Shown here in pieces: positions 33,621-59,241 of a stretch of 64,000 nt of DNA. The stretch spans positions 1 to 64,000 of the forward strand of contig JAJQDC010000020.1 of assembly GCA_021202395.1 (NCBI GenBank). Reading direction: 5' to 3'. A model generated the notes under the pieces. It worked only from the letters and a program-made list of their open reading frames with translations. It ran no database searches and was not told the origin of the DNA. The DNA comes from Clostridia bacterium (GTDB taxonomy: Bacteria; Bacillota; Clostridia; Christensenellales; Borkfalkiaceae). The stretch's first letter is position 1; every line of letters starts with the position of its first letter. The translations under genes were made by a program, and so were the position numbers.

Positions 33621-33655
33621 AATAAATGCGTACAACTTGTACGCATTTATTTTTA
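33621..33655. terminator. Bidirectional terminator between convergent genes
   Basis: AATAAATGCGTACAA-C-TTGTACGCATTTATTTTT. Confidence 0.8.
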
Positions 33656-34375
33656 ACCGTTTTCGGCTGATTTTTTTTGTTTTTGCTTATTTATATATTT
33701 TGGTATATACGTATAGCATAAAAGGAATATAAGGTGAAGTATAAGGATAAGTGCCCCCACAAAGTACCAAGTGAGTATCGTACCCGAAATAAGTGGCTCT
33801 TTGATATACATAGCGTCGTAATCGGCTTCGAACTTATCAAATGCCGTAAGAAGGAATATCCCGTACGTCATCATTATGCAAAGCCCCAGGGGGAAGTATT
33901 TCCATTTTTTAAGGGACGGCGTTATCCATTTTGTCATAAACATCAGTACTGCAAGGTACAGCGCCATAGAGTGGTGCAGTAAGCCGGATATTGTGTTTAC
34001 ATAGAAGAACGATTCGTTCTGGCTTACAAAGTCGGGGTAAATTATGGTAATTAGCCCGCCTATAAAGCCGCAGTAGACCATACAGTGCAGAGTGCAGTTG
34101 TCTTTTTTGAAAGCGAGTGCACAGATTGCAAAAGCAAAACTTGCTATACCGCAGAACGTGTTGGGTATAAAGTAGAACCAGTCGTCGTTAGAAATCGCGA
34201 TACAGATTCTGTTCCATACAATAAACACAAGCAGTATTGCCGCTGTAACTTTTATAGCGATAAATTTAGAAAAATCACTTTTGCAAAACCTATGTATTAA
34301 GTAGAGGCTTGCTACGGCAAGAACGAGAAACACGGCAACATAAGTTAAGTGTTGCCAGCCAAAAACTTGTGGCAT
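33653..34375 (-). CDS. YwaF/TIGR02206-like integral membrane protein
   Basis: Multi-pass membrane protein; HHSMALYLAVLMF and overall pattern. Confidence 0.65.
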   Translation of the reverse strand: MPQVFGWQHLTYVAVFLVLAVASLYLIHRFCKSDFSKFIAIKVTAAILLVFIVWNRICIAISNDDWFYFIPNTFCGIASFAFAICALAFKKDNCTLHCMVYCGFIGGLITIIYPDFVSQNESFFYVNTISGLLHHSMALYLAVLMFMTKWITPSLKKWKYFPLGLCIMMTYGIFLLTAFDKFEADYDAMYIKEPLISGTILTWYFVGALILILHLIFLLCYTYIPKYINKQKQKKSAENG

Positions 34376-34528: not shown

Positions 34529-34557
34529 TTGACAAATTCAAAAAGTTTTGCTAAAAT
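34529..34557 (+). promoter_or_regulatory. Promoter of MATE-kinase leader
   Basis: TTGACA-N17-TAAAAT. Confidence 0.75.
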
Positions 34558-34572
34558 ATTTTGCGTAAAAAA

Positions 34573-34647
34573 GATGTATCTATCCAGACATAAGTCCAAC
34601 CTTGGATAATCAGGTGCGTAGTCATTTATAGATTACGCCTTTTTTAT
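34573..34647 (+). ncRNA. Structured leader, candidate guanidine-IV (mepA motif) riboswitch
   Basis: Hairpin TATCCA(34581-34586)/TGGATA(34603-34608) with conserved-looking 16-nt loop GACATAAGTCCAACCT, possible loop CCT to AGG (34612-34614) pseudoknot, then terminator; upstream of a MATE transporter, the known genetic context of mepA RNA. Confidence 0.55.
34616..34646 (+). terminator. Intrinsic terminator within MATE leader
   Basis: GCGTAGTC-ATTTATA-GATTACGC followed by CTTTTTTATT. Confidence 0.85.
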
Positions 34648-34671
34648 TGTCAAGGAGGTTTTTTTATTTTT

Positions 34672-36684
34672 ATGACAAAAAACGGAGTTAAAGGTCATAC
34701 CGATTCTTCTGAGCGTATAGCAAAGGTACCTATGAAAAAGCTCATCTGGCAGTTAGGTTTGCCGATGATAGTTTCTATGGTACTGCAGGCGGTATATAAT
34801 ATTGTAGATACCGTGTTTGTGGTGAAAAGTTCTGCAGGTACTGCGGGCAACCTTGCGTTAACATACGCATTCCCCATACAGATACTTATGATTGCGGTAG
34901 GCGTTGGTACGGGTATAGGTATCAATGCGCTGCTCGGCAAAAGCTTAGGAGAAAACAATAAAGAAGTTGCAAGCAAAACCTGCGGCAACGGCATATTTCT
35001 TATGCTGGTATTGTACGTCGCATTTATGCTTTTCGGCATTTTCGGCGCAGAGTGGTTTATAAAGATGCAGGCTGATGAAACAAGCATTTATTATGAAAGC
35101 GCTGTTTCTATGGGTACATCGTACCTTCGTATCTGCTGCGTTTTATCTATAGGCAGTATAGGTTTTGCCGTTTTTGAAAGGTTTTTGCAGGCTACAGGCA
35201 AAACAACCCTTTCTATGACAGCCCAGTGTACGGGTGCAGCGTTAAACATTATTTTAGACTACGTATTTATCTACCCCTGCGAGATGGGCGTTGAAGGTGC
35301 GGCGTGGGCAACCATAATAGGGCAGATAGCGTCGCTGATGCTTGCGCTGATATTCCATTACGCTACAAATAAAAATATCAACAAGAGCCTGAAATTCATA
35401 AAGCCCAGCTGGACTATAATTAAAGGCATATACAAAACGGGCTTGTCTGCGGCAATTATGCAGGGACTGCTTTCGGTAATGATGCTTGGCATGAACCTTA
35501 TTTTAGGTACTACGGCGGGCGTGGCAGATACGCTTGTGGGCAGCTTTGGTATCTATTACAAAATAATGCAGTTTGCGTTGTTCGCCTTTTTTGGCGTTTC
35601 AAATACAATAATTACAATACTTTCTTTCAACTACGGCATGGGGGATAAAACCAGGTGCAGACAGGCTATTATATGGGGTATTGCAGACTGCGTTATTGTG
35701 GCGGTGTTTGTTACCGTTTTGTTTGAAGCGTTGGCTTCGCCTTTTGCTTCTCTGTTCAGTGCAACCAGTTTAGACGCCGATTCAAAAACCCAGCAGGTAG
35801 TGGAAACGGCTATAAGAATTTCTGCTATAGGTTATGTTTTTATGGCGTTCAGCGTTGCCGTACAGGGCGTGCTGCAGGCGTTCCGTTACGCAATCCGCCC
35901 GCTTATAATTTCGTTATTGCGCCTTGTTGTGTTTGTGTTCCCCATAGCGTATGCGTTTACTTTAACGGATGATCCGCTCAATACGGTATGGTGGTCGCTT
36001 GTCATCTGCGAAGTGCTTACGGCGGCAGTTGCGGTGTTTATTTTGTATGATACATATAAGCGTAAAATTGTTCCTATGGCAGAAGCGGAAAAGGCGCAAA
36101 GCGGCAACCTTATTGTAACCATATCGCGCGAGCACGGTTCCCACGGCAAATATATCGGCAGCCTTGTTGCAAAAAAACTTGGGATAGGGTATTACGATAA
36201 AGAGATCGCCGCAAAGGTGGCGGAAGAATCGGGGCTGACAAACGATTTTATCGGCGGCGCGCTCGACGGGGAAGAAAAGTTAAGGAATACTTACTTAACT
36301 ACTTCAACCAGCAGGCAGGCGATTATAGAGCAGGCTAAAGTAATACGCAAAATAGCCGACAGTGAAAGCTGTGTAATAGTGGGCAGGGGTGCCGACTTTA
36401 TTCTTAAAGATTATTACGATTGCGTAAAAGTTTTTGTCTACGCAGACGAAAACTTCAGGGTAAATACAGTAAAAGAGCTTTACGGCGATGACGATGCTTC
36501 TGCCAGAAAGCATATGGAGCAGTCTGATGCTTCACGTAAAAAATATTATCATTTTCTTTCCGGTCAGAACTGGGGCGATAAAAATAATTATGATTTATGC
36601 GTAGATTCGTCGGTAGGGGCAGAAGAGACGGCAGAGCTTATAGCTTCTTACGTACGCACCCACAGCAAAACGCTTAACAGCTGA
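34672..36684 (+). CDS. MATE family efflux transporter fused to C-terminal cytidylate-kinase-like domain
   Basis: N-terminal MKKLIWQLGLPMIVSMVLQAVYNIVDTVFV (MATE); from ~36109 IVTISREHGSHGKYIGSLVAKKLGIGYYDKEIAAKVAEESG (cytidylate-kinase-like family); one 670-aa frame. Confidence 0.93.
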   Translation: MTKNGVKGHTDSSERIAKVPMKKLIWQLGLPMIVSMVLQAVYNIVDTVFVVKSSAGTAGNLALTYAFPIQILMIAVGVGTGIGINALLGKSLGENNKEVASKTCGNGIFLMLVLYVAFMLFGIFGAEWFIKMQADETSIYYESAVSMGTSYLRICCVLSIGSIGFAVFERFLQATGKTTLSMTAQCTGAALNIILDYVFIYPCEMGVEGAAWATIIGQIASLMLALIFHYATNKNINKSLKFIKPSWTIIKGIYKTGLSAAIMQGLLSVMMLGMNLILGTTAGVADTLVGSFGIYYKIMQFALFAFFGVSNTIITILSFNYGMGDKTRCRQAIIWGIADCVIVAVFVTVLFEALASPFASLFSATSLDADSKTQQVVETAIRISAIGYVFMAFSVAVQGVLQAFRYAIRPLIISLLRLVVFVFPIAYAFTLTDDPLNTVWWSLVICEVLTAAVAVFILYDTYKRKIVPMAEAEKAQSGNLIVTISREHGSHGKYIGSLVAKKLGIGYYDKEIAAKVAEESGLTNDFIGGALDGEEKLRNTYLTTSTSRQAIIEQAKVIRKIADSESCVIVGRGADFILKDYYDCVKVFVYADENFRVNTVKELYGDDDASARKHMEQSDASRKKYYHFLSGQNWGDKNNYDLCVDSSVGAEETAELIASYVRTHSKTLNS

Positions 36685-58599: not shown

Positions 58600-58628
58600 T
58601 TGACATTTTAATAAATGTGTGTTAATAT
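58600..58628 (+). promoter_or_regulatory. Dedicated promoter upstream of the OLE RNA
   Basis: TTGACA (58600-58605)-N17-TAATAT (58623-58628). Confidence 0.7.
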
Positions 58629-58635
58629 AATATCA

Positions 58636-59205
58636 ATATAATAGTGGTGCAGTATTCTAGTCAGTTGTTGATGATACGAAGACGGGGTTAAACTACCGTT
58701 AAAGGGCATATCGATGAAGTTTCTGGTGTCTGCTTGGTTTGCCCAAATTCGGGTGGATGCTGGGAGTAAAGGTGTATGGGAACTGCATAACGGCATATGA
58801 CAGCCTACCCATTCACCGTGGAGGCAGACGGCACAAATGACTGCCGCCTGTATAAACCTGCTATCGGGCGAAAGCTCGGTACAGAGTAGCCTGCCTTGCG
58901 TGAAGTCAGCGGATAGCAGATCTAAGCGTGCCTATATGTGGCCACGTATAGCTTACGCTATCGCTGCTTGAAATTGATTTTGCAAAAGAGGATAAGCTCA
59001 TCATCAGCTGCCAAGGAAAGCTTCTAGACTGTTAAAGTATTAGAGATTACGGTGTGGTCTCAGTGGCGATTCGGTTATGTATTCGGAAACGGTACAAACG
59101 TGTTTTTAAAAGGAAACTGCTTCTTCGGCGACGGGAAGTAAGCGCGGGGGAAATCCTACCGAACCTTAAGCCGCAAAGTTTATTTAATATAAGCCACTTT
59201 TATAT
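58636..59205 (+). ncRNA. ole: OLE RNA (ornate large extremophilic RNA)
   Basis: ~570-nt GC-rich, hairpin-rich non-coding region exactly between ispA and a small TM protein followed by dxs-tlyA-nadK-argR-recN, the established OLE neighbourhood; internal stems CTGCTATC(58858-58865)/GATAGCAG(58912-58919), CGGGC-GAAA-GCTCG (58865-58878), AGGC..GGCA/TGCCGCCT (58822-58849). Confidence 0.88.
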
Positions 59206-59212
59206 TTTATTT

Positions 59213-59241
59213 GCGCACATAAATTATGTGCGTATTTTTTT
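59213..59241 (+). terminator. Intrinsic terminator between OLE RNA and oapA
   Basis: CGCACAT-AAATT-ATGTGCG followed by TATTTTTTT. Confidence 0.75.

Follow-up and report, generated by a model that had tools for sequence, protein, structure and literature searches.

What controls the MATE transporter–kinase gene at positions 34672..36684 (+) of the window, the 64,000-nt stretch of contig JAJQDC010000020.1 (assembly GCA_021202395.1, Clostridia bacterium) analyzed here, and is its leader a guanidine-IV riboswitch, as an earlier note on this DNA had proposed? The promoter, hairpin, terminator, ribosome binding site and MATE gene named in that note are all present, at the coordinates given below. 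The proposal of riboswitch control stands in part: the leader is conserved, riboswitch-like, contains a terminator and is in all likelihood cis-regulatory, probably as an ON switch, whereas the assignment to the guanidine-IV class does not hold.

The MATE-kinase locus

The gene follows a sigma-70-type promoter, TTGACA-17-TAAAAT with an extended -10 (34529..34557, +; 11 of 12 consensus matches), and a leader of about 75 nt lies between promoter and gene; the ribosome binding site AAGGAGG (34652..34658, +) was read directly from the sequence. The open reading frame of 670 codons encodes a MATE transporter (approximately amino acids 20-470) fused to a Cytidylate_kin2 domain (amino acids 481-647), in line with the MATE-kinase fusion of the earlier note, with both parts recovered by Pfam (MatE, PF01554, E 1e-29; Cytidylate_kin2, PF13189, E 1.8e-44) and the protein scoring above the cut-off of TIGR00797 (matE). 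The MepA equivalog model gave 89.8 of 850 bits, far under its cut-off, so the name MepA is unsupported for this gene. A literature search on MATE-cytidylate kinase fusions turned up nothing relevant. The divergent neighbor gene (33653-34375, -) has a TMEM164-family match (PF14808, E 2.7e-12), and a full-length OLE RNA (Rfam RF01071, 412 bits) is encoded in the window at 58628-59213 (+).

Conservation and structure of the leader

Two further species of the genus have close orthologs, 88% and 85% identical to the window gene, with the same leader (L004 and L005; the window leader is L003). In the alignment of the three leaders, 20/29 promoter positions, 21/27 positions of a core GUAUCU..CC and 28/34 terminator positions are invariant; the figures are 31/129 (24%) for the sequence preceding the promoter, 3/18 immediately behind it, 2/9 for the linker and 10/26 for the surroundings of the ribosome binding site. 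Conservation is thus restricted to promoter, core and terminator, and the high invariance of core and terminator (about 80%) argues that both are under selection. The core, GUAUCU..GACAUAAGUCCANCC (34576..34602, +), has a weaker echo in L123, the leader of a gene 66% identical to that of the window.

Model R1, run over 297 genomes of the order, gave beyond the window's genome and G045 weak matches resembling chance terminators; the pattern GACATAAGTCCRNCC..AGGTGYG, across 85,488 species, returned the two orthologs and two chance matches but no further close copies; chance matches aside, the core GUAUCU..GACAUAAGUCCANCC plus AAGGUGCGUAGUC was thus seen in no more than three genomes, all of the genus. 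The leader, compared with plasmids by BLAST, had no match there.

Downstream of the core is an intrinsic terminator (34612..34645, +) composed of AGGU, the stem GCGUAGUC/GAUUACGC and a U tract, which in the DNA reads as GCGTAGTC/GATTACGC at 34616-34638 followed by T6. It is beyond chance (one found vs. 0.0 expected in shuffles; fold z -4.0), it places a GC-rich hairpin and U tract between promoter and ribosome binding site, the arrangement of an intrinsic-terminator attenuator, and L123 keeps its stem with pair changes.

Regarding the hairpin TATCCA (34581-34586)/TGGATA (34603-34608), which encloses the loop GACATAAGTCCAACCT, its sequence exists as described previously, but alone it is within chance (z -1.1), and the ortholog leaders, when aligned as the earlier note had suggested, keep core and terminator but not its exact stem register; the three close window-type leaders in existence are too few for a real covariation test of the window fold. 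A weak alternative, a possible P1 hairpin UCU-AUCC-AGA (34579..34588, +), pairs identically in L004 and has one pair broken in L005. For the suggested CCT/AGG pseudoknot, all three leaders keep the loop CC and AGG but not the remaining pairing: ACCU (34599..34602, +), the possible partner of AGGU (34612-34615), could form four pairs in the window leader, four different ones in L123 (GCCG/CGGC), and two to three in L004 and L005, where the ends are broken. A GAC/GUC mini-hairpin within the loop was rejected, as neither L123 (GAC/AUC) nor the new motif described below keeps the pairing.

Comparison with guanidine-IV riboswitches

Rfam searches at the gathering score and at E <= 10 gave only chance matches at the leader. 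The Rfam 15 copy used also gave no match for guanidine-IV-like leaders (SMR seeds L062, L066, and L070) and apparently lacks this class; because such true-looking leaders are equally unmatched, the Rfam result at the window leader is uninformative on guanidine-IV. SMR exporters were searched in 150 genomes of the phylum and their leaders compared, and a two-loop leader family was found before SMR genes and also before a MATE gene of Acetoanaerobium. The Acetoanaerobium sequence, a 2.63 Mb entry classed as a plasmid and annotated with only 4 features, may represent a chromosome. A covariance model, R2, was built from four leaders of SMR and MATE genes; its family, UUGCCRCCGGGUAA..GUUAGGYCUUAG, lies upstream of MATE, SMR and PnuC genes, with further copies, from a search of 300 genomes, before MATE (L096, L097, L098, L102, L106, and L109), SMR (L101 and L103) and PnuC (L104 and L107) genes, and the model scores up to 58 bits on members outside its seeds. 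The published guanidine-IV gene set is likewise MATE, SMR and PnuC (PMC7736828), and the loop AGGUCUUAG is consistent with the numbering G62 U63..G66 U67...A71 G72 used in that paper (PMC7736828). We therefore take the R2 family to be guanidine-IV, an identification of our own made from gene set, layout and numbering rather than from published sequence. Guanidine-IV-like leaders were also seen at L092 (1501-1600) and L096-L107.

On the window leader R2 reached at most 5.2 bits, in the wrong place, and across the window's genome it had no match at E <= 0.1, so the class assignment fails; the leader is almost certainly not a guanidine-IV riboswitch. The conserved loops UGCCRCCGGGU and UUAGGY, with their RCC/GGY pseudoknot, are not in the window leader, which has only CC and AGG in common with them. 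Of the two observations that the earlier note had named as refuting the class, the covariance match is indeed absent, but close orthologs do keep the loop.

The window leader and guanidine-IV have a similar layout. Like guanidine-IV (mepA motif, GGAM-1; PMC7736828), the window has a short leader with a loop upstream of a terminator hairpin, a MATE gene downstream, a possible pseudoknot involving the terminator and a probable ON switch; a terminator platform before a guanidine-related (MATE) gene is common to both, but this combination is not class-specific. The second guanidine-IV loop lies inside the terminator hairpin, whereas the window GG is at the terminator base, and the window has neither the UUGCCRCCGGGUAA loop nor the GUUAGGY loop. 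The leader could still be a guanidine-IV riboswitch or a variant of the kind called Gd4v, since its CC/GG pairing could block the terminator base and CCANCC/AGGUGCGUAG is a faint echo of CCACC/AGGUCUUAG in the guanidine-IV-like family, but this is very improbable given the contrast between up to 58 bits on guanidine-IV-like leaders and the low, misplaced score here, and given that the loop consensus GCCRCCGGGU and UUAGGY is missing. Gd4v resembles the window leader in being an orphan candidate transcriptional ON switch with MATE among its genes; it has guanidine-IV-like loops, a changed D1 base and the D2 hairpin on the terminator. Its sequence and its structure are both said to be extremely close to those of guanidine-IV (PMC9788692), and the guanidine-IV-like loops, judged with R2 rather than with a Gd4v alignment, are missing from the window leader.

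A structured motif upstream of related MATE genes

Orthologs at 52-66% identity have a different and very uniform motif of about 40 nt between promoter and gene, here called R3 after its covariance model. Its layout is ARYGNGUW-P1-GUAARUCCR-RYU, directly after the promoter, with an outer stem P0 and an inner stem P1 flanking the internal loop GNGUW/GUAARUCCR, and its 3' half enters the terminator. In alignment A3 (28 sequences), 92.0% of pair cells are paired vs. 77.7% in shuffles, and the covariation score is 0.491 vs. 0.248 in shuffles, a value reached in 0/500 and far above all slid versions. Among 79 aligned matches all eight pairs change on both sides, with 151 such cells vs. 44 (0/500), although this alignment was fitted to model R3. 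Full-length examples make up 78 of the 79, and all of them share G8, G10, G42, U43, A44, A45, C48 and C49.

Regarding distribution, the 33 matches that R3 gave in the order at E < 1e-3 are spread over about 30 of 297 genomes; in the class it was detected in 18 of 196 genomes (E <= 0.01), and in the phylum in 7 of 250. The loci collected in alignment A4 are L006-L010, L124-L146 and L149-L203, and two tandem copies are present in each of G292, G341, G094 and G082. Rfam gave no family match at R3-bearing loci at E <= 0.5, including none to yjdF (azaaromatic) or other efflux-gene riboswitches. Those riboswitches place detoxification genes under toxin-responsive control, a regulatory logic like the one proposed here. 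Among the main texts of the papers searched, none names a motif of this kind beside MATE or CarD genes. R3 is thus a candidate new riboswitch class, apparently uncatalogued, proposed from comparative sequence data.

The terminator is formed from the 3' half of the motif in many R3 copies (e.g., L009, GCGUAAGUCCAA/UUGGACUUACGC) and from the 5' half in others, including L181 (AACGUGUAGUUUUG/CAAAACUACACGUU), L161 and L172. Since both designs exclude the P0-P1 fold, they suggest that this fold prevents termination. The genes downstream include several MATE subfamilies, CarD-like regulators (L162, L183, and L198 by Pfam; L187, L191, L194, and L195 by similar sequence), MFS genes (L196 and L200 by Pfam; L201 and L203 by sequence), a TetR gene (L180) and a stand-alone Cytidylate_kin2 gene (L184), the last of which fits the MATE-kinase fusion in the window. 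The gene at L181 we read as encoding a UvrA-like protein, its ABC match being sub-threshold.

Relationship of the window leader to R3

Run unfiltered over the window, R3 gave nothing near 34574-34650 at E <= 10, and the close ortholog leaders had no R3 match either. In a tree of the MATE part, the three window-type genes together with those of L123 and L147 form one clade (SH-aLRT 98) nested among motif-bearing MATE genes, with the motif-bearing outgroups L178/L157/L145 and L146/L175 below it; this is a quick tree with SH-aLRT as its only support measure. Two leaders of the clade have intermediate features: L123, with GCGUAUC..GACGUAAAUCCAGCC and a separate terminator of the window kind, is aligned by R1 over its full length at 20.3 bits, and L147 has GGCGUAAUUCCGGCU, its terminator likewise separate.

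The string UAAGUCCA(A)C is common to window-type and motif-bearing leaders at the same leader position. In the window, AUAAGUCCA at 34590-34598 is the counterpart of GUAARUCCR, and GAUGUA (34573..34578, +), found by a custom motif scan, may be a remnant of the 5' internal-loop strand, being GNGUW with a one-base insertion; its counterparts are GAGUA in L004, GCGUA in L123 and GAAUGUA in L005. This putative trace of the internal loop, GAUGUA..AUAAGUCCA, was scored with a structure-aware scan built from the 78 examples, which gave shuffle P values of 0.008 for L003, 0.004 for L004, 0.022 for L005, 0.002 for L123 and <0.0003 for L147, values that depend on ad hoc scoring and chosen gap penalties, with L003, L004 and L005 not independent and other window tiles scoring similarly. 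No complementary bases occur at the place of the outer stem P0 in L003, L004 or L005.

The window leader has the same position as R3, before an orthologous gene, and appears to keep the core RUAAGUCCRNY and GUA; it differs in having A for the invariant G42, an extra C and no P0, and its terminator is separate, whereas that of R3 overlaps the aptamer. The nested tree and the core trace are most simply explained if the window leader descends from the canonical motif, P0 having been lost and the terminator rebuilt. Such a derivation appears probable, although the direct sequence evidence is modest.

Proposed mechanism and alternative explanations

The explanation that we favor, by somewhat more than an even chance, is a transcription-attenuation ON switch that descends, strongly altered, from the new motif class and uses the terminator as its gate. 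RNA polymerase would initiate some 7 bases past 34557, and its default would be to stop at the terminator (34612-34645), whose formation would be decided by the element at 34573-34602. A signal would stabilize the core and block the terminator, possibly via pairing of ACC(U) with (A)GGU at the terminator base, and so turn on the MATE-kinase gene. The element is fairly likely to be a ligand-binding riboswitch, and the signal would most likely be a small toxic compound that the MATE protein exports. The window clade would have lost the outer stem, and a separate terminator would have replaced the aptamer-overlapping one.

The attenuator may instead be unrelated by descent to R3, its core being a separate lineage-specific sensor (an aptamer, or a protein or small-RNA site). 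The lack of an R3 match at the window leader and the confinement of the core plus AAGGUGCGUAGUC to three genomes of one genus agree with this, but the nested gene phylogeny, the intermediates L123 and L147 and the string UAAGUCCA(A)C at a matching leader position speak against it, and we regard it as unlikely, though a serious alternative. That the terminator merely lowers expression constitutively near the promoter, with no signal involved, would be compatible with a terminator that is well supported by itself; however, the upstream core matches the terminator in conservation and the linker separating the two does not, which makes this reading improbable. Attenuation by a leader peptide, in which a ribosome stalling on a short ORF would control the terminator, can draw on the frame ATG TAT CTA TCC AGA CAT AAG TCC AAC CTT GGA TAA at 34574-34609. 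This frame is broken in both orthologs, lacking a start codon after an in-frame TGA in L004 and stopping after four codons in L005, and conservation is at the nucleotide, not the codon, level; the leader peptide was therefore rejected as extremely improbable.

Returning to the favored ON switch, it is possible, at slightly less than an even chance, that the R3 class as a whole responds to a toxic compound by switching on MATE and MFS exporters, CarD-like regulators and Cytidylate_kin2 kinases, with the window leader a derived variant, perhaps of changed ligand specificity, that drives a transporter-kinase fusion. If so, a compact and widespread orphan riboswitch class would be added, and its gene set of drug-type exporters, CarD-like regulators and a kinase family with unassigned substrate would point to a toxic compound or stress signal in Clostridia-type bacteria. 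The link between Cytidylate_kin2 and MATE would then be twofold, through the window fusion and through separate genes under the same RNA motif, and the window clade would provide a natural example of a riboswitch with rebuilt aptamer and terminator.

Other leaders were observed before MATE-kinase fusions 33% identical to that of the window. Those of G032 and G045 (L208/L209) have a conserved terminator leader, GACUGAACCAGCARGAGCGUAUAAUUUUCAG...UUAUACGCUC-U7, that resembles neither the window leader nor the R3 motif, and the leaders L011 and L207 have an R3 variant without GNGU, ACAAGUGGC-P1-GCGUAAAUCUGAUUACGG.
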